Source of the DNA: a virus
Virus record (IMG/VR): IMGVR_UViG_3300011116_001045
Span: 1 to 22,371 of that record
Length of the DNA: 22,371 bases
Direction: 5' to 3' (one strand)
In this document: positions 1,045-21,847 of the stretch, in pieces
How the letters are laid out: each line of letters begins with the position of its first letter
Numbering within the stretch: the first letter of the stretch is position 1
Notes under the pieces: model-generated
Database searches by the model: none
The model's input: only the letters and a program-made list of their open reading frames with translations
Told to the model about the DNA's origin: nothing
Position numbers and translations under genes: made by a program

Positions 1045-1055
1045 CCTGGGGAAAA

Positions 1056-1238: not shown

Positions 1239-1241
1239 AAC

Positions 1242-1250
1242 AATAAATAT
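1242..1250 (-). promoter_or_regulatory. TATTTAT-type element at the small ORF start
   Basis: The plus strand reads AATAAATAT. The surrounding 11-mer CAATAAATATC (1241-1251) is identical to that at 19407-19417, which lies in front of another small minus-strand gene. It is only about 3 bp from the ATG, too close for a -10 box serving that start codon. Confidence 0.3.
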
Positions 1251-1282
1251 CAAACCGATTTATCAGACTTCTATTTAACTGC

Positions 1283-1322
1283 AAAAAAAAAAGAACTCCG
1301 AGAAAAAAATCTCGGAGTTCTT
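1283..1322 (-). terminator. Intrinsic terminator of the tail sheath gene
   Basis: A perfect 12-bp stem (arms 1291-1302 and 1311-1322, core GAACTCCGAG/CTCGGAGTTC) with an 8-nt A-rich loop. On the minus strand it runs directly into ten T residues (plus-strand A-run at 1283-1292). It begins about 20 bp after the sheath stop codon at 1342. Stem plus U-tract in the correct orientation make this the clearest transcription signal in the window. It fits termination after a highly expressed late gene. Confidence 0.92.
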
Positions 1323-1341
1323 CTTGAATTTTTACCTAACC

Positions 1342-4654: not shown

Positions 4655-4664
4655 TATAAATATA
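4655..4664 (-). promoter_or_regulatory. TATTTATA-type element upstream of the sheath gene
   Basis: The plus strand reads TATAAATATA, 46 bp before the sheath ATG. It lies in an AT-rich gap with a second element at 4687-4694 in the opposite orientation. Together they make this gap the likeliest place for a separate promoter for the sheath gene. Confidence 0.35.
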
Positions 4665-5510: not shown

Positions 5511-8500
5511 TTAAGACAATATTCCTAAGTTTCTCAAAGCTTTAACGACTTGTCCAATTGTATATCCATCCCAAGTAGCAGAATCATTTGAGATTAAAGA
5601 TGTATTTGCTGAAAACGTCGATGCAGCTATGCTTGAACTCGGTTGGATTATAGGAGTAGCATTCCAAAAACCAAGTTTTTGTGTAGAATCGGTACAAATT
5701 TTAGATCCGTTGGAGGTATTTGTTACCAGATTAAATCCGTCGGATAAGGTCAAAGAATTGTCGACCGTAAACCTTTTAGATCCTGACGTGGCAATCGAAA
5801 TCGCATTTACTCCTGATAGATAAAATCCGTTGTTTGCGGAACCGCTTTTGAATCCAATTGATGGCGATGATGAAGTTCCATCTGTAGAAAAAAATCTTCC
5901 CGTTGAATCAATATAAGATAACGTATTTCCGCTACTATCAACCCATCTTTGCATATCCCCCGCTTGAGACGCTGCTCCCTTCACTGTCCACGATACTCCT
6001 GATGGGTAAATATTTACGGCGGACATATTTGCAGCCCGCAACCTCAATGTCACAGCGCTGTCGCCATTATAAAACTCAAATGTGGTAGCATCCGCCCACT
6101 GAGCATACGTGTTTTTTGCTGACGTAGATTCGTTAAAAACTATACACGAATTATTTATATCAGACGTCCTCTGAGTGATCGTTATAAAAGACCCAGAGTA
6201 ATACGTCGAACTTCCATCGGAACCAATTTTATTCAATACAAAACCATTGGAATTTTGATATTCAGCCAAACTCACAGACTGACCTGATGCACCTTTGAAT
6301 ATACTATTTATTCTAGATCCTGTATAACAGTTAACATAAAATTGACTTGAAGATGCGGGACCATTTACACCTATCTGCCCAGATTGCATTATATTCAACG
6401 CGGAAGCACTCAATCCTGAATTATATACATCGAAATTTATATCCTTTGATGTTCCTGTTCGTATACCCCAATTTAATGACGGTGCATCTATACTAGCTGT
6501 GCCGTTTCCGTTTAATGGATTAACGGTATCAGAAACATCGGTTCCGATATCTAAAACACCATTCTTCTTAAACCGTGCTCCCATTTGATTTCCAGATGCG
6601 TCCGAAAAAGCAAGCATATATTGTGACTGCGTAGGAGCCGCTTTCAACAATAAAGCAGAATTTGAAGATGTAGTATTTATTATCCCACACTGGCTCGTCA
6701 TCGGAGAAGACATAAACTGTGACCCAACTGTAAATAACCCCGATGTGTTTATTCCAAATCTATTTGAGTTAGACAAATAATCGTAGAAAAACAACTGACC
6801 TGATGAGTTTATATACATTTCGTAGTCCCCTATAACGGAAGAAGTTCTACTTAATCTAAACCCTGATTGAGATGATCCACTGTAATGAAATGGCGACAAC
6901 CCTTGGGAAGTTCCTACTCCGAATGAATTTCCTCTAAAAATATTACTAAATGATTGACCAGAACATGAAATGAAGCTAGATGAAACCGAACTTGTGGCCC
7001 AACTGCTTGTTATGTTATACTTGCTACCAGTAGATATATTTGGCGCATTTTTTGCCCAACTTGCGGAAATAACCACGCCCGATATATTTGAACTGGTGAT
7101 ATAACTAGATGTGTTAGAGACATCAGTTGAATAAGCATAACTGCTGGATATTGAGAAACTGCTTGAATCTGTGGAGCTTGCGGAAACCGCATAACTTGAA
7201 GACCACGCTGCGCTGCTTGAATCTGCGGAGCTTGCGGAAACCGCATAACTTGAAGACCACGCTGCGCTGCTTGAATCTGCAGAGCTTGCGGAAACTGCGT
7301 AACTTGCAGAAGCCGCATAGCTTGATGACTCAGCGTAAGCCGCAGAATCCGTGTAACTCGACGTTTCCGCGTAACTTGCAGAAACGGACGGCGAACCTGG
7401 AGCATAACTTGCTGACATTGCATAGTCTGCCCAGCTACCAGACACGGAGTAGCTTGAAGAAACCGACGGCGAACCTGGAGCATAACTTGCTGACATTGCA
7501 TAGTCTGCCCAGCTACTAGACACAGAGTTTATAGAACTCGTAGCCCAACTGCTTGTTATATAGAATCTGCTTCCGGATCCTATTATTGGAGCATTTGCTG
7601 CCCAGCTTGAAGAAATTGCTCTACTTGAGCTGAAAGCATAACTAGCTGATATAGATCTACTTGAAGAAAATACATAACTTCCTGATATAGAGAAACTTGA
7701 AGAAGTTACTATACCAAACACATTCGATGAGGTTACATAGCTAGATGTATTTGACGTCCCAGAATTTAAAGAGTAACTTGATGATACCACATTGGATGCC
7801 CAGCTGCTCGTAATGTTATATGAACTTCCTGTAGAAATATTAGGGGCATTCAGAGCATAACTTGCTGACGAAACCATTCCAAATACATTTGAAGAAGTTA
7901 TATAACTTGATGTCAACGCTGTGGTTGTGTTTGATGAAAAACTTGAACTTGTCGAGACGCTTGCCGTCCCAACCAAACTTCCAGTAAACCCTCCGGCCGA
8001 ATTTACCCCAAGAGACGTTGATAACGACCCTGTAATTTTCTGATTTCCAATTACATCCACAACCCCAGATCCCGCCGGCTTTATAGAGATGTTCACATTT
8101 GAAGCACCAGACCCAGAACTCTCCGATGCCAATGTTATTGATGTGGAAGATGCGGACAAAGCTGCCCTCACAAAGTTTGATGTATTAGTATATGTTCCAT
8201 ACACATTAAACGTTTGTCCAGAGCCTGTATTTCTTAGAGCTAAAATATTTGCGTTATCTCTAGCAAGAATTACATCATAATTACCTATACCGAACACCGA
8301 GTCACAGTATAAAACCCCTCCATTTGTCCTAAATCCTGTAGACGAAGGGAATGAAATGAGTCGTGTTCCTGCGTCATAAGAAAGAACAAGTCCGTTGTTT
8401 GATATGGTCAACTGATCTGTTAGAGTTCCACCCACAAGTGGCAAATATGCACTTGCAGAAACCGCGAAGCTAGCCGACGTAGCAACGCTCGAAGTGAGAG

Positions 8501-10583
8501 ATACGGATGATGTATTTGCGTAACTAGCAGATACGGAAAAACTAGACGATGTAACCGTTCCAAACACATTTGAAGCCGCTACATAACTCGATGTAAGAGA
8601 TGTTCCAGAATTTACAGAATAACTGCTTGAAACTGAACTTGTGGACCAACTGGATGTTATGAAATACGTGCTTCCGGTTAAAATATTTGGAGCGTTTAAC
8701 GCATAACTGGCTGTTGTCGCATTAGACGATGTTCCGAGTAAACTTCCTGTAATACTGCCCAATGATGCGTCGAAACTTCCTGTAAATCTATAACTTCCAC
8801 TGAATGACTTGCTGTTTATCCATGTAGATCCGCTATAAACGAGAAGATCGCCGTTTGATAAGTTTGAAGAACTTACGTTCGACAAAGATTCCAACGTAGT
8901 TGCGGGGTTTGATCCACCCGTAGCTCCAACGCCGGACACCTGTCTAAACAATCCAGACTGAACAATCAAAGCATCAGCGCCCGATAATGAAGTAACAGTA
9001 CCTCCTTTTACAATAACATAACCCAAATATATGTTATTCAACGCCGTGTCAGGAGATTCCGAAAATGCTTCTATATCAACTAAAGATTGCGCCTCTGATA
9101 TGCTTTTATATGTGTCATTTCCGTAATAGACATTAAAGAATCCGTTTGTGTTAGGTGCCCAAAACACCCGCTGTATGCTATATCTTCCACTTGCAACGGT
9201 TGCCAATTGACCGGTCGATGTATTTACATATTTAGTATTATCCAATACAGTGTAACCCGCATTAAGAGGCCCAGAGTCTATCACAAAGGAAGAACCGGAC
9301 TGATAATATCGGTTTATTCTACAATTGTTTACACCGGAATCCACAACAGTAGAAGGATGATCAGGATCATTGATATAGTTAGCCCCAACCAAAAACGACG
9401 TTCCCGAAGACTTCCGTATTCCAAGAGTGCTTCCGCTCGTCTGCAATACGTTTCCGCTCAATTTCATAGGCCCGAACGCTCTTACGAAATCGTTCATTTG
9501 AACCGTAACACCATATGAAATCTGTTGATTATTGAATACGTTAGTAGAAACGCTTGCACTTAGATGGAAAATTTCTCCTAAATGGATCGAAGATTCCCAC
9601 TGTGCTGGCGAAGAAGAACCCCACGCAGAAGACTGCTGGATCAGTTCTCCCGACGAACTTATTCCCACGTATGTAACATATGCGCTTCCACTGTAAACAA
9701 GTGGTTGGTTCAAAAACGCTGACCAATTTAGATATCGTATCGTAGGGTATGGAGCACTAGACGTTAAAGCATTTAGACTCACTATTATTCCGGATCCGCT
9801 TGTGACACTGAATGTGTTTGTTCCGGGCGTCGATGAAATTACCCCACCGTGAAGAATTCCTGTGTAAAGATCTGACTCTAACCACCGAAGTCTTGTAGTG
9901 TTATTAAATCCGTTTCCATTTTGACTAAAATATAAGTCATTTGTGCTTCCGCTCACATAGATGTAAGACGAGGATATTGATGGATTTATATTAGTAGTTA
10001 CCGGTAAAAAGTTTACATATCCGTCGTGTTGAAAATCACCATATACTTTAATAGATGGAGAAGATGTTCCTCGGGATCCACTTACAACCAAATTTCCACT
10101 GACGGTAGAATCTCCTATCAAATTGTTACTTCCAGACGAAAACAGTGAACCCGTGACCGTTTGAGAACCTATGAAATTGTTACTGCCAGTTGTAGCAAAA
10201 AATCTGCTGGAAGTTCCGTTGAAAAGCAGGCTGTTTGAACTAAAGCTGGAAGATACTGAATAACTACTTGAAATCGATGCGGTTGCCCAACTGCTTGTTA
10301 TATTGTATGTGCTTCCTGTTGCAATATTTGGAGCATTTAGAGAATAACTAGCTGTCAAAGAATAACTCGCGGAGACGTTTGGTGAACCAGGAGCATAACT
10401 CGCAGAAAATGCGTTTTGGGAATAAGACGCGCTTAAAACCGTCATCGAACTGGTAGAACTTATAGACAATTTTGTATCCGCATAAGTTTTTACCGCTAAC
10501 TGTGAAGGTACAACGTTATGACTTGCCGTTACAAACGTTGTATCCCTATCAATGGGTATTCCACGAGTAGTTCCTTGTGACAT
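5511..10583 (-). CDS. Giant Ser/Thr-rich repeat tail fibre / adhesin-like protein (1690 aa)
   Basis: Predicted virion fibre. The N-terminus 'RGIPIDRDTTFVTASHNVVP' then 'SQLAVKTYAD' (7-37) is a classic phage fibre opening. Residues about 45-120 are 'SASYxxN' repeats; about 125-600 form a non-repetitive beta-rich region. Then come further Ser-rich repeats, including five copies of a module built on '[NFY]ITSSW', and a domain with 'GIGNYDVILARDNANILALR' and 'FNVYGTYTNTSNF' typical of phage fibre distal regions. Exact tandem duplications occur at about 1010-1065 and 1090-1141. The C-terminus has 'STQKLGFWNATPIIQPS' and ends 'QVVKALRNLGILS', the usual tail-fibre tip motif. The ATG at 10583 has an AGAAAGGA Shine-Dalgarno about 8 nt upstream. 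It probably acts in host surface contact. The repeat style is shared with the 1017-aa protein two genes upstream, implying a common origin. Confidence 0.88.
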   Translation of the reverse strand: MSQGTTRGIPIDRDTTFVTASHNVVPSQLAVKTYADTKLSISSTSSMTVLSASYSQNAFSASYAPGSPNVSASYSLTASYSLNAPNIATGSTYNITSSWATASISSSYSVSSSFSSNSLLFNGTSSRFFATTGSNNFIGSQTVTGSLFSSGSNNLIGDSTVSGNLVVSGSRGTSSPSIKVYGDFQHDGYVNFLPVTTNINPSISSSYIYVSGSTNDLYFSQNGNGFNNTTRLRWLESDLYTGILHGGVISSTPGTNTFSVTSGSGIIVSLNALTSSAPYPTIRYLNWSAFLNQPLVYSGSAYVTYVGISSSGELIQQSSAWGSSSPAQWESSIHLGEIFHLSASVSTNVFNNQQISYGVTVQMNDFVRAFGPMKLSGNVLQTSGSTLGIRKSSGTSFLVGANYINDPDHPSTVVDSGVNNCRINRYYQSGSSFVIDSGPLNAGYTVLDNTKYVNTSTGQLATVASGRYSIQRVFWAPNTNGFFNVYYGNDTYKSISEAQSLVDIEAFSESPDTALNNIYLGYVIVKGGTVTSLSGADALIVQSGLFRQVSGVGATGGSNPATTLESLSNVSSSNLSNGDLLVYSGSTWINSKSFSGSYRFTGSFDASLGSITGSLLGTSSNATTASYALNAPNILTGSTYFITSSWSTSSVSSSYSVNSGTSLTSSYVAASNVFGTVTSSSFSVSASYANTSSVSLTSSVATSASFAVSASAYLPLVGGTLTDQLTISNNGLVLSYDAGTRLISFPSSTGFRTNGGVLYCDSVFGIGNYDVILARDNANILALRNTGSGQTFNVYGTYTNTSNFVRAALSASSTSITLASESSGSGASNVNISIKPAGSGVVDVIGNQKITGSLSTSLGVNSAGGFTGSLVGTASVSTSSSFSSNTTTALTSSYITSSNVFGMVSSASYALNAPNISTGSSYNITSSWASNVVSSSYSLNSGTSNTSSYVTSSNVFGIVTSSSFSISGSYVFSSSRSISASYAFSSSRAISSSWAANAPIIGSGSRFYITSSWATSSINSVSSSWADYAMSASYAPGSPSVSSSYSVSGSWADYAMSASYAPGSPSVSASYAETSSYTDSAAYAESSSYAASASYAVSASSADSSSAAWSSSYAVSASSADSSSAAWSSSYAVSASSTDSSSFSISSSYAYSTDVSNTSSYITSSNISGVVISASWAKNAPNISTGSKYNITSSWATSSVSSSFISCSGQSFSNIFRGNSFGVGTSQGLSPFHYSGSSQSGFRLSRTSSVIGDYEMYINSSGQLFFYDYLSNSNRFGINTSGLFTVGSQFMSSPMTSQCGIINTTSSNSALLLKAAPTQSQYMLAFSDASGNQMGARFKKNGVLDIGTDVSDTVNPLNGNGTASIDAPSLNWGIRTGTSKDINFDVYNSGLSASALNIMQSGQIGVNGPASSSQFYVNCYTGSRINSIFKGASGQSVSLAEYQNSNGFVLNKIGSDGSSTYYSGSFITITQRTSDINNSCIVFNESTSAKNTYAQWADATTFEFYNGDSAVTLRLRAANMSAVNIYPSGVSWTVKGAASQAGDMQRWVDSSGNTLSYIDSTGRFFSTDGTSSSPSIGFKSGSANNGFYLSGVNAISIATSGSKRFTVDNSLTLSDGFNLVTNTSNGSKICTDSTQKLGFWNATPIIQPSSSIAASTFSANTSLISNDSATWDGYTIGQVVKALRNLGILS
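7161..7314 (-). repeat. 54-bp in-frame tandem repeat, about 2.8 copies
   Basis: Copies begin at 7161, 7215 and 7269, exactly 54 bp apart, and differ at only a few positions. Each encodes an 18-residue unit of the type 'SSADSSSAAWSSSYAVSA' in the giant fibre (about residues 1090-1141). The near identity, including third positions, points to recent duplication, and a multiple of three means copy-number change would keep the frame. Confidence 0.9.
7381..7527 (-). repeat. 78-bp in-frame direct repeat, about 1.9 copies
   Basis: The segment starting at 7381 recurs at 7459 with very few differences, the match fading after about 7527. Each copy encodes a 26-residue unit containing 'SWADYAMSASYAPGSPSVS'. 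It lies beside the 54-bp array, so this part of the fibre shaft appears to be actively lengthening or shortening. Confidence 0.9.
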
Positions 10584-10954: not shown

Positions 10955-13900
10955 TTATCCTCCCATCAGAAGGAAATTTTGATTAAAATTAACTTCTAAT
11001 ACATATGAAGCCGTTACTGAATATGAACTACTAATTGTCGATATAGATCTCGATGACGATATTGAATACGAAGAACTTGTGGAATAATCGGAGAAACTAG
11101 CCGACGGAGCAGTTGACGAAAAACTGCTTGAAATAGAAGAAGTCGACCAGCTACTTGTTATAAAGTATCTACTGCCGCTTCCAAGGGTTGTTCCCCCCGA
11201 TGAATTCAAAGCATAACTGGACGTTATTGAATAACTCGATGAAATAATGACGCCAAATATATTTGAGGCAGTGACGTAACTGGCTGTATTTGAAGTCGAA
11301 GAAAAACTTGACGATATGGACGATGTAGCCCAACTGCTTGTTATATTGTATGAGCTTCCGGTTCCAAGGGTTGTTCCACCTGCGGAAGAGTTCATCGAAT
11401 AACTCGCGGTCACAGAATACAGAGCCGCGCTGGAACTTACTCCAACGCTCGATGTAAACGAATAACTGGAAGATACGCTGGTTAAAGAGTAACTTGACGA
11501 CAACGTTGGTGATCCTGGAGCATAACTCGCTGACAAAGCTTGAGCAGCGGAAAGTGCGTAACTGGCCGTCTCCGTTGGAGCTCCCGGAGCATAACTTGCA
11601 GAAAATGCTCGTAGAGAATAGCTCGAAGATAGAACAACTCCGTAAACACTTGAAGCAGTGACATAACTTGAGGTATTCGATGTAACTGAATAACTGCTCG
11701 AAACTGATGCGGTCGCCCAGCTGCTTGTTATATTGTATGAGCTTCCGGTTCCAAGGGTTGTTCCCACTCCGCCCCCGGGAGAAACCAAAGCATAACTCGC
11801 GGTCACAGCAAATAATGTTGCACTAGAACTTATAGCGACGCTAGATGTTATAGAATAACTAGCGGACGTGATTAATCCCACTACGTTAGAAGCAGTTACA
11901 AAACTTGCTGTATTTGATAGTGAAGAAACGTTCGATGAAATAGAATTAACAGACCAGCTGCTCGTTATATTGTAACTACTTCCGCTGCCCAACGTTGTTC
12001 CTCCAGTTGAAGAATTGAGAACATAACTGGCTGTCAAAGCGAACAATGAATTGCTTGAACTTATTCCTACACTCGACGAAACAGAATTATTTGACCAGCT
12101 GCTCGTTATATTATGAGAACTTCCCGTCGAAAAATTCGGGGCATTTAAAGAATAACTTGCAGACAAAACCGTTCCGTATATATTGGATGAAGTTACATAA
12201 CTGGCTGACAAAGACGTCCCAGCAGCTGTGGAGTAACTGCTAGATACGGCGGTATTGGATATTGAAGAGAAACTGCTTGATATCGATGTGGACGATACAA
12301 GAGAGTAACTTGAAGTTATAGCGGACCGAGCGTCACTGCTTGAAATTGCGTAACTTGATGTATAAGAATAACTGCTAGAAACTGACGAAGTCGCCCAACT
12401 GCTTGTTATATTGTATGTGCTTCCTGTAGAAATATTGGGGGCATTCAGAGCATAACTTGCAGTAGGAATGGAACCGGTAGTTAAACTTCCTACTTTTGTT
12501 ATATTTAAGCTTCCGGTCCAAGTGGACAGTGCTAAATTTTCTACGTTTGTTATTGAAAGGTTAGTTCTTACCGATGATGTGCTGGAAAAGGAAAGATTTC
12601 CTGTGTTATCTATTGCCATCAATCCCACACCATTGCCTGCCAAAGAATTCATCCGCAAATTCTTCCAGTCAAATTTTGTGCTTCCGAGATATCTTAGTGT
12701 ACAATTAGATGTATCCCATAAAATCGCGTGGCTTCCAAACTCATCTTCTAAAAGACGTGAAGATAAATCCAAAGAAGCCGTGCCATTGGAATCTATAAGA
12801 GTGCTTATCCATTTTGGCACCGAAGAAGAAATCTGTAGTACCTGTCCCCTTGAACCTGATGCAAGTCTCGCTGCCGTCGATCCGCTCCTGTAGATCATAT
12901 CTCCCGTGGTAGTCATTGGAGACAACGCATCAAACGCAGAAGCAGCGGTCGTATTTCCGGTACCTCCTGAGGATATAGGAACGGTAGCCACAGAGTTAGC
13001 AAAACTTGAAGTCAGCGAATAGCTTGCAGAAGATTGAACCGATACATAGCTTGCTGTCAAAGAATTCGATGACCAGCTGCTTGTTATGTTGTATGAACTT
13101 CCAGTGGAGATGTTTGGTGCGTTTAGAGCATAACTAGCAGACGTGACCACTCCGATAACATTTGATGCAATCACATAACTTGAGGTATTCGATGTAACTG
13201 AATAACTGCTCGAAACTGATGCGGTCGCCCAGCTGCTTGTTATATTGTATTTGCTTCCTGTCGAAAGGTTAGGAGAATTCAGTGAATAACTCGATGTGAT
13301 CGAATAGCTTGCCGATGATTGGACTGAAATATAACTGGCCGTAGATGAAAACGTCGACCAACTACTTGTTATGTTGTATGAACTTCCTGTAGAAATATTT
13401 GGTGCATTTAGAGCATAACTGGAACTCAATACTACGCCAACGATTCCACTTGAAGATACAAAGTTAGATATTCCCGCAGTTGTAGAATAACTGCTTGACA
13501 CCGACGAAGTAGCCCAACTGCTTGTTATGTTGTATGAACTTCCAGTGGAGATGTTTGGTGCGTTTAGAGAATAACTCGACGTGATGGAATAACTGGCCGT
13601 GGGCTGTATTCCAATGTAACTCGCTGTCGATGCATTTGTAGACCAACTACTTGTTATGTTGTATGAACTTCCTGTGGTGAGCGTAAATCCATTTAGTACA
13701 ATACTAGCAGTTTCGGCGTAACTTGAGCTAGCAGGAGATCCTAAAACAAAACTGGATGTTAAAGCATAACTAGAACTTTTTGCTGTAGCGGAATAGCTCG
13801 AAGATACCGATAAACTTGAGGTGGCAACCCAACTCGCGGATTCAACTGTAAACAAAGAACCCAGTTGAGTATTTGTTATAGTGTTAAGTGAACCGGTTAC

Positions 13901-14008
13901 GTCGAAATAGACCACCGAACTCTGAGTATTTCTTAGTATAAATTCCTCAAAATCAGCGCTGCCAGACCGTTTTCTGGTCATTAAAATATCTAAGTCGGAA
14001 ATCGCCAT
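10955..14008 (-). CDS. Second Ser/Thr-rich repeat fibre protein (1017 aa)
   Basis: A predicted fibre-like virion protein. The N-terminal ~60 residues ('MAISDLDILMTRKRSGSADF' onwards) are non-repetitive and probably the virion attachment part. Most of the rest consists of repeats of the kind 'SYALNAPNISTGSSYNITSS' plus 'WATSSVSSSYS'; the '[NF]ITSSW' core occurs eleven times. A non-repetitive insert in the middle carries the phage-fibre motif 'PISSGGTGNTTAASAF' with 'TTTGDMIYRSGS' and 'GQVLQISSSVPKWIS'. Later repeats replace 'NAPNISTGS' with 'GGTTLGTGS', showing two repeat subtypes. The short C-terminus ends 'LLMGG'. The ATG at 14008 has AAGG 7 nt upstream. It is shorter than the 1690-aa fibre and lacks that protein's 'QKLGF..ATP' tip, so the two may form different segments of one fibre or two fibres. 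Confidence 0.85.
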   Translation of the reverse strand: MAISDLDILMTRKRSGSADFEEFILRNTQSSVVYFDVTGSLNTITNTQLGSLFTVESASWVATSSLSVSSSYSATAKSSSYALTSSFVLGSPASSSYAETASIVLNGFTLTTGSSYNITSSWSTNASTASYIGIQPTASYSITSSYSLNAPNISTGSSYNITSSWATSSVSSSYSTTAGISNFVSSSGIVGVVLSSSYALNAPNISTGSSYNITSSWSTFSSTASYISVQSSASYSITSSYSLNSPNLSTGSKYNITSSWATASVSSSYSVTSNTSSYVIASNVIGVVTSASYALNAPNISTGSSYNITSSWSSNSLTASYVSVQSSASYSLTSSFANSVATVPISSGGTGNTTAASAFDALSPMTTTGDMIYRSGSTAARLASGSRGQVLQISSSVPKWISTLIDSNGTASLDLSSRLLEDEFGSHAILWDTSNCTLRYLGSTKFDWKNLRMNSLAGNGVGLMAIDNTGNLSFSSTSSVRTNLSITNVENLALSTWTGSLNITKVGSLTTGSIPTASYALNAPNISTGSTYNITSSWATSSVSSSYSYTSSYAISSSDARSAITSSYSLVSSTSISSSFSSISNTAVSSSYSTAAGTSLSASYVTSSNIYGTVLSASYSLNAPNFSTGSSHNITSSWSNNSVSSSVGISSSNSLFALTASYVLNSSTGGTTLGSGSSYNITSSWSVNSISSNVSSLSNTASFVTASNVVGLITSASYSITSSVAISSSATLFAVTASYALVSPGGGVGTTLGTGSSYNITSSWATASVSSSYSVTSNTSSYVTASSVYGVVLSSSYSLRAFSASYAPGAPTETASYALSAAQALSASYAPGSPTLSSSYSLTSVSSSYSFTSSVGVSSSAALYSVTASYSMNSSAGGTTLGTGSSYNITSSWATSSISSSFSSTSNTASYVTASNIFGVIISSSYSITSSYALNSSGGTTLGSGSRYFITSSWSTSSISSSFSSTAPSASFSDYSTSSSYSISSSRSISTISSSYSVTASYVLEVNFNQNFLLMGG

Positions 14009-14015
14009 AATACCT

Positions 14016-14025
14016 TATAAATATT
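14016..14025 (-). promoter_or_regulatory. TATTTATA-type element at the 1017-aa fibre start
   Basis: The plus strand reads TATAAATATT, ending 7 bp before the fibre ATG and touching its AAGG Shine-Dalgarno. A second copy is at 14044-14053. It is so close to the start that it could be an AU-rich leader element rather than a promoter box. Confidence 0.3.
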
Positions 14026-14218: not shown

Positions 14219-15382
14219 TTAAAATGTAGACCACGAAGAAAGAGAGTGTCTCCTCCACATTCCTCCGATATAGACATAGTGATAGTTTGAATCCAGTGCC
14301 ATCCATCCCTCCTGACCATAAGAATTTGGGCTTACAGGAGCATCGTGCCAAAGTTGAACCCCCGGTTGTTCATTGGATGTTTGGGTCACAAGGTTCTCAT
14401 AAAAACCTCTAATTTGATTGAGTTGTTCAGAAGAAACATCGGACGTCTCTCCGGACATATTTATCTTCGGCTTAACAAAATCTTCTCCATCCGGAACCAT
14501 AGGATTTTCGTGGGTGTAGTCAATGGGTTTCTTATACGAAGTGTTCTTGAGATTACTGTTTATCTCAGCCATCTGACGCCCGGAAACAATTTCTGTTCCG
14601 ACCTTTATTGCCCTCGGAGTTAAACTTCGTTTTACGGTCTGTTGCCTTTCCTCAAAAGACTCCTCCAGAAGATATGCCTTAACTTTCAAACTAAATGTGG
14701 CTTTGACGAGACGGTCGTCGTCAGATTGACTCTCCGACGTGAACGAGAATGTATCAGCGTAAACTCTGAATTTAAACCTCTTTGGATCCCCCCAATATTC
14801 TTCGCACGCAAAGTTTATCTTTTGAACTATTGTATTTATTTGTTCTACATACTCACACCAACAGATAAATTCGTATGTTACGTCGATATGATCCGGTAAC
14901 GCTACGCTCAAAACTTGGTTTACAGGAGCGACATAATTATTCAATATAGAAAACCTATCATACTTGTTCTTTGCGTCAAATTTTCTTAAAACCGGATAAG
15001 TTAAGTGTCGGTTAAGAGTCATTAAATTCGGGTCTTTAACAAAAGATGTTCTGGAAAAAACTATCAATGGAAGTTGAAGTTTTCCTTGTTGGTCACGGAG
15101 AACTCCGTCTTGTTGAATGGCCTTCCATTTCTCCTGAGAAGCATATTGAACAGGAACCTTTATACTGGAACCGTTATCCAATACGTGTATATTAATCTCA
15201 TCCGTTATATGTTTCAATACCGCCGTATCTATATCCAACAACTTTACCGTGAAGTTTTTAGAGGAGTCTTGGTCACGGCGGATGTTCAACGCACGATTCT
15301 CGGAAACCTTTGCGCCCGCCATCGCAGACGTAGATTGTATATTATTTGGTGCTGGGTTGTTAGTATTTCCTTGCCACGCCAT
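14219..15382 (-). CDS. gp15-like tail completion / sheath stabiliser protein with added C-terminal module
   Basis: A 387-aa protein. In T4, gp15 caps the tail tube and sheath and joins the tail to the neck. Features that recall gp15: 'IKVPVQYASQEKWKAIQQDG' (T4 has a similar 'IRVPITYASKEHF' stretch), 'LQLPLIVFSRTSFVKDPN', then 'HIDVTYEFICWCEYVEQINT' and a region ending 'VKATFSLKVKAYLLEE' where T4 has a comparable closing strand. Length exceeds T4 gp15 (272 aa) because of a linker (about 275-340) and a ~45-residue C-terminal module also present as the separate 51-aa gene downstream. Gene order (gp13-like, gp14-like, gp15-like) supports the call. The ATG at 15382 has no strong Shine-Dalgarno. 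Remote similarity only, so assignment is moderate. Confidence 0.65.
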   Translation of the reverse strand: MAWQGNTNNPAPNNIQSTSAMAGAKVSENRALNIRRDQDSSKNFTVKLLDIDTAVLKHITDEINIHVLDNGSSIKVPVQYASQEKWKAIQQDGVLRDQQGKLQLPLIVFSRTSFVKDPNLMTLNRHLTYPVLRKFDAKNKYDRFSILNNYVAPVNQVLSVALPDHIDVTYEFICWCEYVEQINTIVQKINFACEEYWGDPKRFKFRVYADTFSFTSESQSDDDRLVKATFSLKVKAYLLEESFEERQQTVKRSLTPRAIKVGTEIVSGRQMAEINSNLKNTSYKKPIDYTHENPMVPDGEDFVKPKINMSGETSDVSSEQLNQIRGFYENLVTQTSNEQPGVQLWHDAPVSPNSYGQEGWMALDSNYHYVYIGGMWRRHSLSSWSTF

Positions 15383-15394: not shown

Positions 15395-15871
15395 TTAGTT
15401 TTGTCTATCAACAAGATTTATCTTACTCAATCTTGAATAGTGTGTGTTACAAATTATAGATAAACTCTTGTCTGGCTGTCCCGCCAAAAACTGTTCTTGA
15501 ACTACATTGTCAATTTCGTGATACCTCTCATTAAAGAAAATCAAATCACCCACTTGTGGAAAAAAGTTAACCTGTTGAAGCATCTTTTCTCTGAACATAA
15601 AAACCGGATTCTGCTTCCGGTCAGGGCCGAACTCAGCATCCTCCGTTGTTATATCACCACCGTCTCTTAAACACGTCATTTCTATTCCAGGAAAATAAAA
15701 CTTTCCGGATGATTGATCGGTTTCACCGTATATGTTAGTCACCGTCTCAAGCGGTGCTATCTTATACAACGTCACCACTACTTGAACAATATCTGAATAC
15801 AATTCAGCTTGAATAGAATTCAAAAAAAGTCTATCTCTCGATGAATAGTATCTTCCTAAGAAATCAGACAC
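15395..15871 (-). CDS. gp14-like neck protein
   Basis: A 158-aa protein with 'FFPQVGDLIFFNERYHEIDN' followed by a strand-rich tail, resembling the 'EGDLIYFP...LFEINWV' part of the T4 neck protein gp14, which helps form the head-tail connector. It is shorter than T4 gp14 (256 aa). The start must be the GTG at 15871, because the preceding in-frame codon is TAA; a strong GGAGG Shine-Dalgarno lies about 9 nt upstream inside the last codons of the endonuclease gene. The two genes overlap by 8 bp. Position between the gp13-like and gp15-like genes matches T4 order, apart from the inserted endonuclease. Confidence 0.68.
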   Translation of the reverse strand: MSDFLGRYYSSRDRLFLNSIQAELYSDIVQVVVTLYKIAPLETVTNIYGETDQSSGKFYFPGIEMTCLRDGGDITTEDAEFGPDRKQNPVFMFREKMLQQVNFFPQVGDLIFFNERYHEIDNVVQEQFLAGQPDKSLSIICNTHYSRLSKINLVDRQN

Positions 15872-16760
15872 TTAATACTGCCTCCATCACAGTTTTTGGT
15901 AGATTTTTTTCTAAAATTCTCAAAATCTTAAAGTTATTTTTAATAGCTATTTCGTTTTTTTCAATATCATTAAAGAAAGCCTTCTTTTGAAATTCATATT
16001 TGCACGATTCTATTGTTTGTTTGTGCCAAAAATCACCATCAATTTCTAATAAAATATTATAATCCGTCAATAAAGCATCGTATACTTTTCCACACAGTTC
16101 GTATTTCTTGATGTAATTTATTTTTTCTTCATCCATCATACCATACACCTTTGTTTCTAGCGAAGTGTCTCCGTTGGGAGAAAATACCACTTTGAAACCC
16201 TTTATGGATGCATTTAAAAGGTGTTTACGCCAACCAACTTCGTCTCGATTCTTCCACGTTTTCCAAATTTCTCCAACCCGCTTTTTTTCGGATTCATTAT
16301 TCTTCCAAAACAAAATCTTAGACTCAGAAATTTTTTTGTTTCTTTCATCTGTATAAATACGAGAATATAGAGAAGGATCTCTTTCAAACTTTCCCTTAGA
16401 TGAGTTTGAAATTTTTTCTTTAGTTTCAGCGGTTCTCGGAACTCCTCGTCTAGCTTCCATCTTTTTTTTGACAGACGTTTCTGACATAGCCAGTTTTGTT
16501 TTCCGTGACACATTTTCACGATATTCTGGGTCGGAGTAAGCCAACAGCTTTGCACATCTTCCTCCACAACAACCGCTATATCCTTTGTTTAGATTTATAA
16601 AATTCGTTGGTGAAGAACAATGTTTGCAAGATCCGACATTTCCTATATATTTACAGTAATATTCCTCGGTGGAGATATTGTGTGAGTGTTTTATATGGAT
16701 ACCCAAACATCTGAAATCGGAAAAACTTCTTGAACACATCTTGCACAAAATTTTATCCAT
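15864..16760 (-). CDS. Free-standing homing endonuclease (zinc finger, NUMOD3-like, Vsr-like nuclease)
   Basis: 298 aa. Domains in order: a C2H2-like finger (C6, C9, H22, H27); a second Cys cluster (C45, C48, C64/C65, C69); NUMOD3-like DNA-binding repeats at about 75-130 ('VPRTAETKEKISNSSKGKF'); and a C-terminal nuclease of the Vsr/PD-(D/E)xK type with D228, E239 and D241 in 'LLEIDGDFWH'. Such proteins cut a specific site in related phages lacking the gene and spread by recombination. The gene lies exactly between the gp13-like and gp14-like genes, overlapping each by 8 bp, in an otherwise conserved T4-like order. Its 3' end carries the Shine-Dalgarno of the gp14-like gene. No Shine-Dalgarno precedes its own ATG. 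A DNA-repair Vsr enzyme is unlikely given the NUMOD-type region. Confidence 0.85.
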   Translation of the reverse strand: MDKILCKMCSRSFSDFRCLGIHIKHSHNISTEEYYCKYIGNVGSCKHCSSPTNFINLNKGYSGCCGGRCAKLLAYSDPEYRENVSRKTKLAMSETSVKKKMEARRGVPRTAETKEKISNSSKGKFERDPSLYSRIYTDERNKKISESKILFWKNNESEKKRVGEIWKTWKNRDEVGWRKHLLNASIKGFKVVFSPNGDTSLETKVYGMMDEEKINYIKKYELCGKVYDALLTDYNILLEIDGDFWHKQTIESCKYEFQKKAFFNDIEKNEIAIKNNFKILRILEKNLPKTVMEAVLSV

Positions 16761-17961
16761 AAGTATTAATAAGTATTAAACCAAATACCCAAACTCCTAT
16801 GTAAATCAGATTCGGAATTTTCTTCAAAACCTCGTTGGTTTTATCAGATTTATTCGCATTGGCCTCAAGCTGTTTGTCTATAGTTGTTGCTTCCAACATT
16901 TCCCTAAGTTGGGATATTAATGTTTCTTTTTCGGCAGCGGCCTCGGACCTAAGTTCGCCGCCGTCCAGTGTGACTTCTCCACCAGGAATTGGAACCGTGG
17001 AATACTTCTGCCTAATAGCACCCAAGACTTCTTTGCATAGAGCGAGAAAATATTTCTTAATCCACTGGCGACCGACTGAGTTTATGGTATAATACGGTAT
17101 GTTTTGGTATGGTATATTTGAATAATCAGATGACTTTTGATACGCTGAGCCAGACAAAAACATAGAAGAACTCTTGTCGTTTTCAACAAAATATTCAAAA
17201 TAGAGTTTATAGGAGACGTTAGGTATCGGAAATATCTTCAGCTTATTATTAACCAATTCAAATGAATACGCGCTCTTTCTAACCATGTCATTGAACTCAA
17301 TCGCCTGACCCCGGAGAAGATCCTCGAAAATTGGGGTCATCAGAAATTGGGTGGCAGGAGAGTATCCCGCGAAACCCATCTCGTTAAGTATGTTGCTATA
17401 ACTCATACCGGTCATACTAAATGGGTCATATATCCTAGCGAATGCGGGAGTAGGTCCATGAAACACTCTACGAATTTCAATACGATTAAAACTCTCAGAG
17501 GTGTTTCCCCATAAGGATTGTAAATCGTAGGTTTGCGTTCCCTGTGTGACGTTTATTGTTCCTCTTTTTAAATCTATCTTTCCACCAACCATCGCCTCTG
17601 TTCCATATGCTTTTGATACATCGACTACATAATTAAGACCGGAATCCACAACCGCCTTGCCCCCAACATTGGTGGTTCTAGTCTGACCGATTAGGTTTAG
17701 ATAGTTATTTTTTATGTTGAATTGATTTACTTGAGCACCATATTCCGATACCGCTTCTTCATAACAAGCATAAAAGTTTATGTCCGTCAGCTCTATATCA
17801 ACGACTGGATATCCAAGCCTTTGACCCGCCCATCTTGCTCCACTATAACAGTCTGCTGTAAATTCGGAATCGGTGTCGTATAAACCAAACGGTGTGGAGC
17901 CAGACACGGCAGAGCCGCTTCCTGGCCAACGAATTCTATCTTGGTCGATTCCAATACTCAT
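16753..17961 (-). CDS. gp13-like neck protein with unusual C-terminal extension
   Basis: A 402-aa protein resembling the neck (gp13-type) proteins of T4-like environmental phages: an N-terminal Gly/Ser stretch, then 'YPVVDIELTDINFYACYEEA' (51-70), and near the C-terminus 'RQWIKKYFLALCKEVLGAIR', 'PIPGGEVTLDGGELRSEA' and a helical segment. It probably forms part of the head-tail connector. The last 13 residues, 'VWVFGLILINTYG', are strongly hydrophobic and unlike the rest; from memory, relatives stop at about 'IYIG'. The extension falls right where the endonuclease gene begins (8-bp overlap), so insertion of that gene may have removed the native stop. The ATG at 17961 has a weak Shine-Dalgarno. 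The assignment rests on remembered family patterns plus gene order. Confidence 0.65.
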   Translation of the reverse strand: MSIGIDQDRIRWPGSGSAVSGSTPFGLYDTDSEFTADCYSGARWAGQRLGYPVVDIELTDINFYACYEEAVSEYGAQVNQFNIKNNYLNLIGQTRTTNVGGKAVVDSGLNYVVDVSKAYGTEAMVGGKIDLKRGTINVTQGTQTYDLQSLWGNTSESFNRIEIRRVFHGPTPAFARIYDPFSMTGMSYSNILNEMGFAGYSPATQFLMTPIFEDLLRGQAIEFNDMVRKSAYSFELVNNKLKIFPIPNVSYKLYFEYFVENDKSSSMFLSGSAYQKSSDYSNIPYQNIPYYTINSVGRQWIKKYFLALCKEVLGAIRQKYSTVPIPGGEVTLDGGELRSEAAAEKETLISQLREMLEATTIDKQLEANANKSDKTNEVLKKIPNLIYIGVWVFGLILINTYG

Positions 17962-17967
17962 ATACCA

Positions 17968-17976
17968 TATAAATAG
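17968..17976 (-). promoter_or_regulatory. TATTTATA-type element at the gp13-like start
   Basis: The plus strand reads TATAAATAG, 6 bp before the ATG of the gp13-like gene; ATATAAATAGT is shared with 940-950. It is one of the recurring elements found in longer gaps in front of minus-strand genes. Confidence 0.3.
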
Positions 17977-18014: not shown

Positions 18015-19193
18015 TTAGTGAATTAACAAATATGTTCCCAACACGTCTTTTCTACTTGCAGAGTCGTCTCCGTCCCTCGGACGAACAATAACGTTGTATT
18101 TACCCACTTCGTCCGATTCAGGAGTATTTCTCAATTCGTCGTAAGTCAATATAGAGTTCTTGTCCACCTTAAACTTCTTAGCCATCCGATCCTTCAATGT
18201 ATCCAAATCAGCGTCGGATTTAAATTTGACGCGGCCCTTCTCGTCCTTTACGTATTTAACCCTACCACTGGCACCAGGCTCTGTCTGAAGCAAATCAATG
18301 AAATCTTCCTTTGGAACCACAGTGGAGTTTTTTGTCTTTGTGAAATCAATGCGTTTCTCTTCTTCCTTCTTAGCACCCATAGAGAAGTTTATTAAGAAAT
18401 TAGAAGGTTTATCACCCTGAGCAACCGACGCCATCTTCGTGTAGGCGTAGAAATTAACCTTCGGGAACTTCCTAGCAATAGAATATGCGAGAGCGAGATA
18501 ATCCGGCGAGAAGAAGTCTCCTGCATCATGCCAACGAATTACGTTCTGTATATCCTTCTTATCAGATGCGGAGGATAGATTCGCTATCTCGTTCTCCAAC
18601 ATCTTTGAAAATCCGGCAGGATCATTTAAAAGGAAATTTAGGACCTTTGTCTGAGACAATGAAGCATCAGGAAACTGGACATATCCACCCTTTCTGGCAT
18701 AACAATACACCTTACAAGCCCCAGCGCCCGGACAAGTGTCGACAACAACGAACTTACCTGTCTTTTCATCTATCGCCAAACCTTTCAACGCTGGCAGACC
18801 GATATTGTAAAATTGAACAAATCCCTTTCCTCCACTATGAGCCAATTTTTCATTCTGCTTAAGGAGTTTCTTAGGACGTGTCATTATTGCTTTTCTTAGA
18901 GCATCCAGATCATATTTTTTATTGTCCTGATTGTGTATTTCTATGTTGCTAGCGTGAACATACGGCATATCAAACCTATCCTTTGCCGATTTTTCTCCGG
19001 ACATGGTTTTTGCCATATATTTCTGCATCTCATCATCGGAAACATCGCGTGTAGTTGCACCCAAAAAGTCCGCCTCATTTAAATTGTTTTTCACAAAGTC
19101 TTCGATTGGTATAACTTTCATCTCCAACAATGACTCGGATTTAATCTCATCCAAACATTCACCTATGATTTTTTTAAGTTCGGGAATTTTCAT
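18015..19193 (-). CDS. GP88-family protein (mycobacteriophage gp88-like), function unknown
   Basis: 392 aa. The core matches the phage 'Gene product 88' family: 'CPGAGACKVYCYARKGGY' with C154, C160 and C164, then 'RWHDAGDFFSPDYLALAY' (220-237) and 'FPKVNFYAYTK' (243-253). The closely spaced Cys suggest a metal or cluster site, but biochemistry is unknown. Apart from C13 there are no other Cys, so any second Cys group seen in some relatives is missing; the end is instead 'RPRDGDDSASRKDVLGTYLL'. The first ~40 residues look separate: 'MKIPELKKIIGECLDEIKSE', ending in an 'LNE-A' site (40/41), reminiscent of T4 capsid-targeting peptides removed by the prohead protease. The start is 1 bp after the stop of the 68-aa gene. 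Whether it is packaged in the head is inference only. Confidence 0.78.
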   Translation of the reverse strand: MKIPELKKIIGECLDEIKSESLLEMKVIPIEDFVKNNLNEADFLGATTRDVSDDEMQKYMAKTMSGEKSAKDRFDMPYVHASNIEIHNQDNKKYDLDALRKAIMTRPKKLLKQNEKLAHSGGKGFVQFYNIGLPALKGLAIDEKTGKFVVVDTCPGAGACKVYCYARKGGYVQFPDASLSQTKVLNFLLNDPAGFSKMLENEIANLSSASDKKDIQNVIRWHDAGDFFSPDYLALAYSIARKFPKVNFYAYTKMASVAQGDKPSNFLINFSMGAKKEEEKRIDFTKTKNSTVVPKEDFIDLLQTEPGASGRVKYVKDEKGRVKFKSDADLDTLKDRMAKKFKVDKNSILTYDELRNTPESDEVGKYNVIVRPRDGDDSASRKDVLGTYLLIH

Positions 19194-19194
19194 A

Positions 19195-19401
19195 TTATTT
19201 TACCGTTACAAAGATAACTCCATTTACAGATTTCAACTCCACGTTTACAACATCCCGTCTTAGATTTGTAAAAAAGACGGATTGACCTCCGACTGTTTTG
19301 GTTTCATGTGCGTTTGACGCAACTTCAAAATCAACTGATGGCTGACTTTCCTGTTCGGATTGAAGATGATCCTCGGATAATAGGTCTTTAAGTTTAATCA
19401 T
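19195..19401 (-). CDS. Small hypothetical protein (68 aa)
   Basis: A 68-aa frame, 'MIKLKDLLSEDHLQSEQESQ' followed by a beta-strand-like half ending 'VELKSVNGVIFVTVK'. The N-terminal ten residues (amphipathic, ending L-S-E) resemble the N-terminus of the adjacent GP88-like protein and T4 internal-protein targeting peptides. It is the first minus-strand gene after the divergent region, and the GP88-like ATG follows 1 bp after its stop, so the two form a coupled pair. No family recognised. Confidence that it is a real gene comes from position, tight spacing and the shared N-terminal pattern. Confidence 0.65.
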   Translation of the reverse strand: MIKLKDLLSEDHLQSEQESQPSVDFEVASNAHETKTVGGQSVFFTNLRRDVVNVELKSVNGVIFVTVK

Positions 19402-19469: not shown

Positions 19470-19940
19470 ATGTTCAAAGAACTCAAAACTGACCTTTTAA
19501 CTGCTGAGGTGGACGCTATAGCACACTGTGCCAATTGTTTTTGCACTATGGGATCCGGTATAGCTAAGCAAATAAAAGAAAAACTTCCAGAAGCCTTTCT
19601 TGTGGATTCAAAGACCCAAGCCGGAGACAGAACTAAGTTTGGTCGATTTTCTTGTGCAGAAATCAACAACCCAAAGATTAAAACAAGTGTTAAATTCGTT
19701 TACAATCTATATGGTCAGTTTTATTACGGAAGGGATTCTCGTAAGTTAAACTACGAATCAATCTACACCGCTCTCGAAGGAATGAGACGGGATTGTGTAT
19801 CAAAGCCAGTGAAAACAATTGGATTCCCAAAAAACATGGGATGTAATTTAGCAGGAGGACATTTTCCAATAGTTTACGAAATGATACATCACATCTACTC
19901 AGACAGTCCGTTCGATGTGTTTATATGTGAGTATGATTGA
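19470..19940 (+). CDS. Macro-domain protein (ADP-ribose-1''-phosphate phosphatase-like)
   Basis: A 156-aa single-domain macro protein. The start 'FKELKTDLLTAEVDAIAHCA' gives the usual first strand and 'GDLL'-like loop; 'NCFCTMGSGIAKQIKEKLPE' is the ADP-ribose-binding segment with the Gly-rich turn; 'VYNLYGQFYYGRD' and 'NYESIYTALEGMRRDC' follow; 'GFPKNMGCNLAGGHF' is the phosphate-binding loop, where relatives usually have GCGLAGG. These proteins bind or hydrolyse ADP-ribose derivatives. In a phage this could recycle tRNA-splicing or NAD products, or reverse ADP-ribosylation used by host defence; the sequence does not decide. The ATG at 19470 lacks a Shine-Dalgarno. It is the first gene of the plus-strand group. 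Confidence 0.88.
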   Translation: MFKELKTDLLTAEVDAIAHCANCFCTMGSGIAKQIKEKLPEAFLVDSKTQAGDRTKFGRFSCAEINNPKIKTSVKFVYNLYGQFYYGRDSRKLNYESIYTALEGMRRDCVSKPVKTIGFPKNMGCNLAGGHFPIVYEMIHHIYSDSPFDVFICEYD

Positions 19941-19952
19941 TTTCCTAGGGTT

Positions 19953-20852
19953 ATGGGTTGTGTGATGATACTTATACTCATGGAACATCTAAAATCAAAG
20001 TGTCCGAAGTGCCACAAAGGTGTCACGTTTAAAACAAAAAGTGGTTTATATAAATTCACGAAATACAACAGAAAGTGTAAAAATTGTTGTAATAAAAAGG
20101 ATTATGTAAAGAACGAATTTGTTAGAGTTTGTAACGAATGTGGTGATGAAATGATATACAAAACAAGAATAGAAAAAAACCGTTCTGACCGAGAAGGGAG
20201 GATATGTCGATCATGTGCATCTACCATATATAATGCCCGTAGAGGATGTGTTCTCGACGCAGAAACTAAAAATAAATTACGGGATTCACGTATAGGCAAG
20301 AAGTTGTCATCAGAAACAAAGGAGATTCTCAGACATAGAATGATGGGTAATAAAAATCCATTTTTCGGCAAGAAACATACGCCGGAATCTTTATCGGAAA
20401 ATAGCAGAAAAAACACGGGAAAAAATTCTAAAAATTTCGGAAAAAAGTTATCTGAAGAACATAAAGAAAAATTGAGACTCTCTTTTAGAGATAGGTTAAA
20501 TAAATTGAGAATACCACTTCCAAATGGGAGGTGTTTTAACAAAAATGCATGCATTTTCATAGATAATTGGGGAAAATCAAACGGATATGAATTTCAACAC
20601 GCCATGAACACTGGTGAAAAATTAATAACTGGATATTCCGTGGATGGTTATGATCCAAAAAATAACACCGTATTTGAATATGATGAAAAAAGACACTACA
20701 ATTGTTTGGGTGAATTGAACCGTAAAGATGTGGATCGAATGATTAGGATAATAAAATCGTCAAACTGTAAATTTATCCGATACAATGAATTTTTAAACAA
20801 ACTCTATGAGTGTAGATTGGTGGAAAACCAGATACACTATTCAACACTGTAA
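19953..20852 (+). CDS. Second free-standing homing endonuclease (zinc motifs, NUMOD3 repeats)
   Basis: 299 aa. The N-terminus has four CxxC pairs ('KCPKCHK', 'KCKNCCNK', 'VCNECGDE', 'ICRSCAST'), indicating zinc ribbons. Residues ~100-185 hold NUMOD3-type repeats ('GKKLSSETKEILRHRMMGNK', 'NPFFGKKHTPESLSENSR', 'FGKKLSEEHKEKLRLSF'). The C-terminal nuclease-like part has 'VDGYDPKNNTVFEYDEKRHY' (D231, D234, E242, E245, H248), a PD-(D/E)xK-like pattern different from the first endonuclease. It sits between the macro-domain and GMP reductase genes, 12 bp after one and 2 bp before the other, which is typical of an inserted mobile gene. Starts at 19953, 19965 or 19980 are all possible; a TAGGG stretch precedes the first. 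Its target is probably in this or a neighbouring gene of a related phage. Confidence 0.82.
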   Translation: MGCVMILILMEHLKSKCPKCHKGVTFKTKSGLYKFTKYNRKCKNCCNKKDYVKNEFVRVCNECGDEMIYKTRIEKNRSDREGRICRSCASTIYNARRGCVLDAETKNKLRDSRIGKKLSSETKEILRHRMMGNKNPFFGKKHTPESLSENSRKNTGKNSKNFGKKLSEEHKEKLRLSFRDRLNKLRIPLPNGRCFNKNACIFIDNWGKSNGYEFQHAMNTGEKLITGYSVDGYDPKNNTVFEYDEKRHYNCLGELNRKDVDRMIRIIKSSNCKFIRYNEFLNKLYECRLVENQIHYSTL

Positions 20853-20854
20853 TT

Positions 20855-21847
20855 ATGCCTAAAATTTTATCAACCCGTTCAATTTATTATAACGACTGTA
20901 ATTTGATTGCCCAGCCGGTCCATGAGACGTTAAAAAGCCGAACAGAAGTTCCAAAAGAATTGGATAGAATTTTTGTATCTCCTATGGCAGCAATAGTAGG
21001 AAATACATTTACAGAAGAGGCCACAGACTTGGGATTGAACGTAGGAATACACCGATTTTGTGACGCGTATAAACAGATTGAAATGGTCAAATCTTCCCCA
21101 CATAATTACAAGAATACATACGTGAGTATCGGATTGAACGACTGGGATAGAGTGTCTCTACTAAAGGATTACACGTCGAATTGGATAATAGATTGCGCAA
21201 ACGGTTATTTATTCAATCAGATACTTCCCACCATACGACGACTACAATCCACAGCTAGTATTAAAAATCTGGTGATAGGAAACATACATTCTAAAGAAGG
21301 CATAGAAATTTACAAAGAGTTGTCTGAGGAAATATTCCGTGTTTATTTCAGAGTTGGTATTGCGTGCGGGTCAGCGTGTTCGACATCGGATGCCACGGGG
21401 ATAAACCGTGGACAGATAACCGAACTCATTGAATGTCGTGAATATATCGACAACGAAAAATTCTCTAACTTCTTTGTAATGGCCGACGGAGGAATCAAAA
21501 ACGGAAACTACGCGTCAAAAGCATTTGGTGCCGGAGCAGATTGTATCATGTTGGGCGGGTTCTTTTCGAGAGCAAAAGAGGCGGAAACCCATGTCATAAA
21601 GGACGGAACATATTGGGGAGGTGCAAGCAAAAAACAACAAGAACTGTTCGGCGGAGTAAAACGCCACAGCGAAGGCAAGGTATATCAAGTTGAGGGTGAA
21701 CTTCTTCCGTTGGAAGCCCTCGTGAATGAACTGTGGGGAGGCATAAGCAGTTGTGTCAGTTACAGTGGATATTCCACATTGAATGATTTTATTGGTCACG
21801 GTGTTTTTGAAATAAAGGAAAACAGTTTACCCCCACGGGGAAGATGA
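20855..21847 (+). CDS. IMP dehydrogenase/GMP reductase family enzyme, GMP reductase-like
   Basis: 330 aa, about the length of bacterial GuaC, with no CBS insertion. GMP reductase converts GMP to IMP with NADPH. Family features in order: 'TLKSRTEV' (25-32); 'IIDCANGYLF' (111-120), matching the reductase-type D-x-ANGY rather than the dehydrogenase D-x-AHG; catalytic loop 'VGIACGSACSTSDATG' with nucleophile C175 and T181; 'MADGGIKNGNYASKAFGAGA' (209-228); 'HSEGK' with E273 at the place of the GuaC catalytic Glu; and 'LWGGISSCVSYSGY' near the end. The loop differs from the usual GPGSVCTTR, having extra Cys171 and lacking the Arg. Known role: purine salvage and adenine/guanine balance; here it could tune nucleotide supply in infection. 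Its start is 2 bp after endonuclease 2, so it may have lost its native leader. Confidence 0.85.
   Translation: MPKILSTRSIYYNDCNLIAQPVHETLKSRTEVPKELDRIFVSPMAAIVGNTFTEEATDLGLNVGIHRFCDAYKQIEMVKSSPHNYKNTYVSIGLNDWDRVSLLKDYTSNWIIDCANGYLFNQILPTIRRLQSTASIKNLVIGNIHSKEGIEIYKELSEEIFRVYFRVGIACGSACSTSDATGINRGQITELIECREYIDNEKFSNFFVMADGGIKNGNYASKAFGAGADCIMLGGFFSRAKEAETHVIKDGTYWGGASKKQQELFGGVKRHSEGKVYQVEGELLPLEALVNELWGGISSCVSYSGYSTLNDFIGHGVFEIKENSLPPRGR

Follow-up and report, generated by a model that had tools for sequence, protein, structure and literature searches.

Predicted capsid-targeting leaders on a GP88-family protein and its 68-residue neighbour in an IMG/VR virus record

The N-termini of two proteins encoded side by side in the virus record IMGVR_UViG_3300011116_001045 of IMG/VR (22,371 bases, analysed in full and called here the window) very probably function as capsid-targeting leaders in the manner of the internal proteins of phage T4, which predicts that both proteins are packaged and cleaved. 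According to this hypothesis, leader-bearing proteins would be produced together with the products of the virion genes, and the helix formed by each leader would dock on the core of the prohead. A gp21-type protease would then cut the 68-residue protein after Glu10 and the GP88-family protein after Glu12 and Glu40, and the trimmed proteins, freed inside the head, would be delivered into the host along with the DNA. Docking, cutting, presence in the virion and ejection are what we infer from the leaders, and the proteins could accordingly act at the very start of infection. The features of the window that are relevant here are listed below.

19195 to 19401, minus strand: gene of the 68-residue protein, directly 5' of the GP88 gene; homologues hold the same position in the two nearest relatives, L001 and L002.
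19372 to 19401, minus strand: predicted leader MIKLKDLLSE of the 68-residue protein, predicted cut after Glu10; identical in 3/3 homologues.
18015 to 19193, minus strand: gene of the GP88-family protein, 392 residues (PF17338, E 2.7e-34).
19158 to 19193, minus strand: predicted first GP88 leader MKIPELKKIIGE, predicted cut after Glu12; T4 register in 37/42 relatives with Glu at this place.
19074 to 19157, minus strand: GP88 residues 13 to 40, a linker modelled at low confidence, which includes a conserved hydrophobic segment and ends at the second site.
19074 to 19082, minus strand: second predicted cleavage site, Leu-Asn-Glu40 before Ala41; Glu in 44/44, Ala next in 30/44, junction retained in enlarged relatives.
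18018 to 19073, minus strand: predicted mature GP88, residues 41 to 392; model ordered from residue 41, except for about 161 to 180.
18702 to 18734, minus strand: cysteines C154, C160 and C164 (CX5CX3C), a possible Fe-S site, invariant in the alignment of 44.
16753 to 17961, minus strand: neck gene (head-tail adaptor Ad2), 3' of the GP88 gene (phrog_211, E 9.9e-14).
14219 to 15382, minus strand: tail sheath stabiliser-like (gp15-like) gene, a weak assignment (Pfam 23.9 bits against a cut-off of 25; phrog_227, E 0.005).

The stop codon of the 68-residue protein gene and the ATG of the GP88 gene are separated by one base, and the tail sheath gene also lies near this pair on the same strand. Both reading frames, their N-terminal peptides and the LNE triplet before Ala41 are as the sequence-only reading of this DNA had described them. 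The two leaders are closed by the T4-type L/I-x-E motif, as LSE in the 68-residue protein and IGE in GP88, and both MIKLKDLLSE and MKIPELKKIIGE fit the register of T4 leaders, with hydrophobic residues at positions -6, -3 and -2 of the Glu. Passages of a T4 review attribute targeting mainly to leader residues 4 and 7 and processing to residues 8 and 10, with gp21 cutting after L/I-x-E (PMC9026906). The match to PF17338 (119.4 bits against a cut-off of 24.4) is restricted to residues 110 to 326, so the GP88 leader lies outside the known domain.

GP88 relatives were taken from IMG/VR as the best 80 of 459 loci, most of which encode a short hydrophobic leader ending in Glu whose letters are very different from one protein to another. 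Together with the window they provide 81 proteins, of which 44, all matching PF17338, were aligned; those left out are mostly near-copies, cut-off forms or long-insert forms, and the L002 protein ends at the end of its contig. Glu occupies column 12 in 42/44 aligned proteins, the row of L020, which begins two codons late, being counted as a miss, and P3 is I, L or V in 42/42. The full T4 register is found in 37/42 of these leaders versus 3/730 of the other Glu of the same proteins. Column 40 is Glu in 44/44, with L, V, M or I at P3 in 44/44 and Ala next in 30/44, while L, I, V, M or F stands at P3 of 98/730 other Glu; these counts are not independent events, as several records and loci are near-copies. 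Both the T4-like character ascribed earlier to the leader and the second fitting site, LNE before Ala41, are supported by the alignment. Mean pairwise identity among the 44 proteins is 0.24 at residues 2-11 and 0.23 at residues 20-28, against 0.67 at residues 110-326. The leader is one of the least conserved parts of GP88, indicating that leader and body evolve apart.

A looser pattern detects the first leader in 70/73 distinct GP88 frames versus 73/719 internal Met positions of the same proteins; 3/73 fail it, and the GP88 of L070 has no first leader. This pattern is weak on its own because it also fits 290/1043 other frames of the GP88 loci. Its count for the second site, 65/73, is lowered mostly by failure of the anchor pattern, and the alignment count is relied on instead. 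Applied to all frames of 13 sequences (11 records, L001 and the window), a loose N-terminal pattern fits 83/1777 frames versus 92/5803 internal Met windows, an enrichment so mild that it was dropped for the register test. In the isolate HTVC008M, 5/224 frames fit a leader pattern (raw count); a frame with a DUF6267 match begins with MYNDLLVE and a P-loop-type protein with MIPFILKE.

Structure prediction presents the leader as a part distinct from the body. The AlphaFold2 model built from the 44 sequences (mean pLDDT 82.6) has a helix at residues 3-19 followed by a region of low confidence at about 20-40 (mean pLDDT 62, 54 and 53 for residues 11-20, 21-30 and 31-40), and is ordered from residue 41 except at about 161-180, where the third Cys sits. 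Three GP88 homologues from outside this group, D29 gp88 (Mycobacterium phage, 240 residues), Gilgamesh gp56 (Streptomyces phage, 246 residues) and vir335 (215 residues), start at or near the core and all lack the leader. The proteins studied here share with D29 gp88 (PF17338) the core domain with three Cys and a GDFFS stretch and differ from all three outside members by about 105 extra N-terminal residues carrying the leader and two predicted sites. The sequence-only reading had raised the question of whether its N-terminus belongs to the conserved GP88 fold; the separate helix of the model and the three leaderless homologues speak against this explanation.

Enlarged relatives provide a second view of the junction at residue 40. 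Thirteen GP88 proteins have at least 440 residues, leaving aside L074, whose extra sequence is inside the body. In 12/13 the GP88 body comes immediately after L/V/I/M-x-E and Ala, and the thirteenth, L009, has LDE before Val. A leader is visible ahead of the extra sequence in 11 of those 12, L039 being cut by the contig end. Because several of the 13 are close relatives, the 12 kept junctions represent fewer than 12 events. Comparison of L027, which reads EDMAEAKLGG, with L036, which reads EDMNEA, an insert, then GGLMEAKLGG, illustrates an insert that restores the same junction, as a cleavage site would leave. The inserts give no Pfam family match in the 10/13 proteins scanned. Frames of the 80 loci contain 14 stretches of the form G-V/I-A-E-G/A, some of them as repeats inside enlarged GP88s; they are found in L039, L053, L061, L064, L073 and L077. 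Four scrambled forms of the pattern gave 1, 1, 1 and 0 occurrences and D or Q in place of E gave 11; the stretches are possible additional cleavage sites.

The further leader-bearing proteins that the sequence-only reading had proposed to look for are present on some contigs and were not found on others. The MKK[ST]ELK leader of GP88 is found on other frames of its own contig in G011 (3/95), G015 (4/59) and G019 (5/35), with shuffled-peptide means of 0.06, 0.12 and 0.09, respectively. The leader of the 68-residue protein is carried by 5/132 frames of G014 versus 0.26 by shuffling and also by frames of G008 (4/95), G010 (3/85) and G007 (2/110); it was not found in the frames of G011, G004, G002 and G006. 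For 6 of the 12 GP88 leaders tested, no other frame of the contig carries the leader; the leader of the window is one of these, with no partner among the 22 other frames, and the window alone is too small for the test. The one partner found in G008 does not exceed what shuffling gives (P 0.145). The same-contig test omits G006, whose GP88 lacks the first leader, and covers 11/13 sequences for the leader of the 68-residue protein.

A scan of IMG/VR extends the reuse of both leader types to many unrelated proteins. MIKLKDLLxE gives at least 130 DNA matches in at least 120 loci, 109/130 of them at the first possible start of a frame, corresponding to at least 125 proteins that fall into at least 58 clusters (blastp, E 1e-3, leader removed first). 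The MKKSELKxxIxE type gives at least 134 matches in at least 119 loci, 116/134 at the first start, and at least 129 proteins in at least 75 clusters, counts that rest on 119 of 120 loci. Phe is accepted in place of Leu by both DNA patterns, and the second additionally tolerates some other residues where Ser or Thr is specified. A scrambled MIKLKDLLxE, the control having been run for this first peptide only, returned from the whole collection four copies of one 35-residue frame. Of 30 scanned leader-bearing proteins, four passed a Pfam cut-off, with matches to poly(A)-polymerase/CCA-type, DUF6267, DUF5661 and class I chitinase-type families; matches to 5'-nucleotidase and FMN-reductase were below the cut-offs. 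The 68-residue protein itself has two IMG/VR relatives at the sensitivity used, and all three proteins share the same first ten residues, followed by a variable stretch.

Two records have additional leader-like starts. The record G008 (loci L016 and L021) has two GP88 genes, each with a leader, and the gene that follows the first copy, coding for a 155-residue protein, carries a leader similar to the one on the second copy. ADP-ribosyltransferase was a guess for this protein, which has no Pfam match. Leader-like peptides also open five more frames of L001 in the neighbourhood of its protease and capsid genes (977-3528 and 6516-6824): MKDISSIIKKLVEE, MYLTSELIRSVLRE, MNMFGMKRLME, MIKLKHIVE and MNRDELKALIKE.

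The sequence-only reading had tied its hypothesis to a prohead protease in the genome. None was found in the 22,371-base window, which is a fragment, but gp21-type Peptidase S77 is encoded by both nearest relatives among the best 80 of 459 loci, L001 (GP88 89% identical, 24,100 bases) and L002 (81%, 19,754 bases); in the search that covered these two, 4/10 shorter records have it. The S77 gene of L001 corresponds to the head maturation protease phrog_207 and is followed on the same strand by the major head protein gene, phrog_138; the genes of the 68-residue protein and GP88 lie about 8 kb after the protease. From this arrangement, gp21- and gp23-like genes would be predicted at most about 7 kb beyond the right end of the window. 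Among 19 other GP88 records, S77 is found in 10, which are the ten largest and include G001 and G002, near-copies at GP88. The MIKLKDLL leader was followed in the 15 records of at least 54 kb among the 80 listed, and S77 was detected in 9/15. The other six, four of them above 125 kb, have no match to S77, phrog_207 or Peptidase S78. A gp23-like gene is present in two of the six, near the contig end in both, and these two records argue most clearly against a strict coupling of leader and protease. The capsid-targeting reading is weakened by the window without protease, by such leader records without S77 and by the missing same-contig partners. In G009, the record of L022, the prohead protease domain (74469-76073) is split by about 1.1 kb within an open frame of 595 residues, as an intein or another in-frame insert would do.

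Gene order places GP88 among virion genes. In G003, with other genes interspersed, the order is major head protein, scaffold, protease, portal, tube, sheath, sheath stabiliser, Hc2, GP88 and Ad2. The GP88 gene is 10-12 kb from the protease gene on the same strand in G003, G004, G007, G008 and G010; the second copy of G008 is 78 kb off, and G002 and G006 encode GP88 on the opposite strand, at a large distance from the protease gene. A homologue of Ad2 lies at most three frames from GP88 in 21/80 loci, and the sheath stabiliser-like gene has homologues in 12/80. The position between Hc2 and Ad2 in G003, and next to Ad2 in the window, would suit leaders that dock proteins on another part of the virion, such as the neck or portal, with the Glu sites left uncut. 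We give this alternative a small chance, because leaders that recur on a wide range of unrelated proteins point to a general signal with cleavage, and because the L/V/M/I-x-E second site is present in all 44 aligned proteins and its junction is kept in the enlarged forms. A role in the infected cell, with a non-structural GP88 whose leader helix would dock on some phage or host protein, is also hardly probable. D29 gp88, encoded among small hypothetical genes, would fit such a role, but the place among virion genes, the S77 protease of the relatives and the T4 register argue against it, and so does leaderless Gilgamesh gp56, encoded between capsid and head-to-tail adaptor genes. That the N-termini reflect chance or a common N-terminal composition, as the many unrelated frames accepted by the loose pattern might suggest, is next to excluded by the T4 register, the invariant second Glu and the scrambled-peptide control.

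We privilege the capsid-targeting hypothesis, which brings these proteins close to known systems. As far as the T4 review describes them, T4 internal proteins and Alt likewise have a short N-terminal leader with hydrophobic residues at -6, -3 and -2 of a Glu closing L/I-x-E, depend on a gp21-type protease (found here in relatives) and form an unrelated set of cargo proteins (PMC9026906). The present case departs from T4 in that the leader letters vary by lineage and are not those of T4, that GP88 has a further conserved site, and that certain relatives are polyprotein-like; packaging is here a prediction from sequence. The same pages already suggest that leaders may let T4-like phages load various proteins (PMC9026906). 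Head propeptides of the giant phage SPN3US, in the parts of the article dealing with them, are also cut after Glu, as predicted here, and some at several sites; several of them exceed 100 residues, whereas the present leaders have about 9-12, plus the linker to residue 40 (PMC5694885). Among the listed titles and abstract openings of open PMC papers, none connects capsid targeting with GP88 or with uncultivated phages. The scale and form look new: leaders specific to a lineage that recur on numerous unrelated proteins, the second kept GP88 site and the extra modules at that site.

Invariant residues hint at the activity that GP88 might bring into the host. C154, C160 and C164, WHDAGDFFS and YAYTK are invariant in 44/44 aligned proteins; the CX5CX3C spacing is found also in Gilgamesh gp56 and vir335, and D29 gp88 has CX6CX3C. 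A gene like that of the G004 Fe-S biosynthesis protein lies at most 1.2 kb downstream of GP88 in 10/80 loci, several of them near-copies, and directly adjoins it in 8; the four neighbour genes scanned belong to PF01521 (Fe-S_biosyn). The three invariant Cys and this neighbour hint at an Fe-S enzyme, our leading guess for GP88 activity, and we judge it rather likely that GP88 is an Fe-S protein.

The canonical radical SAM motif is CX3CX2C. Radical SAM enzymes occupy ranks 1-6 of the structural matches of the first GP88 model, headed by spore photoproduct lyase (Z 6.7, rmsd 5.0, 221 residues aligned), with viperin, NifB and QueE at Z 4.8 or less; Z values below 8 may reflect merely a common arrangement. 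A second model, of another member, finds radical SAM enzymes in 20/50 rows (best Z 5.4) with enolase-superfamily fragments scoring higher (Z 6.0). As spore photoproduct lyase is absent from these 50 rows and enolase-superfamily fragments are best, identity with this enzyme is not claimed. Foldseek found no match at E < 0.001 for either model, the best E of the GP88 profile against solved structures was 0.18, and GP88 was the only family below E 0.0009 when the 44 members were scanned with Pfam and NCBIfam. GP88 may resemble spore photoproduct lyase, viperin and NifB in its barrel-like model and in three invariant Cys after a strand, and differs from radical SAM enzymes in its Cys spacing (CX5CX3C, or CX6CX3C in D29 gp88), weak fold scores and lack of sequence match. 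A radical-SAM-like enzyme is a tentative assignment that we hold below even chances. GP88 was found in cellular genomes at 3 loci of 590 candidate stretches, among the matches listed.

A wider reading, doubtful when taken as a whole, would join these elements. T4-like uncultivated phages would possess a general head-cargo system in which interchangeable leaders, own to each lineage, are placed on dozens of unrelated proteins, some of them polyproteins with modules parted by prohead-protease sites; GP88 would be an injected Fe-S enzyme, possibly radical-SAM-like, coming from the last host and perhaps acting on damaged DNA. If this is true, an N-terminal peptide in the sequence would reveal, among phage proteins without known function, those that travel in the virion and are injected, and would give a time and place of action to these GP88 proteins. 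Many uncharacterised proteins of uncultivated T4-like phages would become candidates for host takeover in the first minute, and the interchangeable leader with modules at the cut site would show how phages recruit new cargo.

Other genes of the window deserve mention. A 298-residue protein encoded between virion genes (15864-16760) has close homologues in 4/80 loci and weak ones in 2, and may be a mobile endonuclease, a guessed function. On the opposite strand, 19470-21847 codes for a macro-domain protein and an IMP dehydrogenase-like protein, whose homologues among the 80 loci are found in L001 and L002 only. The regions 5511-10583 and 10955-14008 each encode a very long protein, rich in serine and with repeated SSYSLNAPNISTGSSYNITSSW-like units; both are perhaps fibre proteins, also a guess. 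The octamer TATAAATA occurs in 7 copies in the window versus 1.6 expected by shuffling (the largest of 100 shuffles gave 5), including those at 17968-17975, 14016-14023, 4655-4662 and 941-948. Five copies are on the plus strand, and four of these lie 7-47 bases upstream of starts of minus-strand genes, the gene strand reading there TATTTATA.
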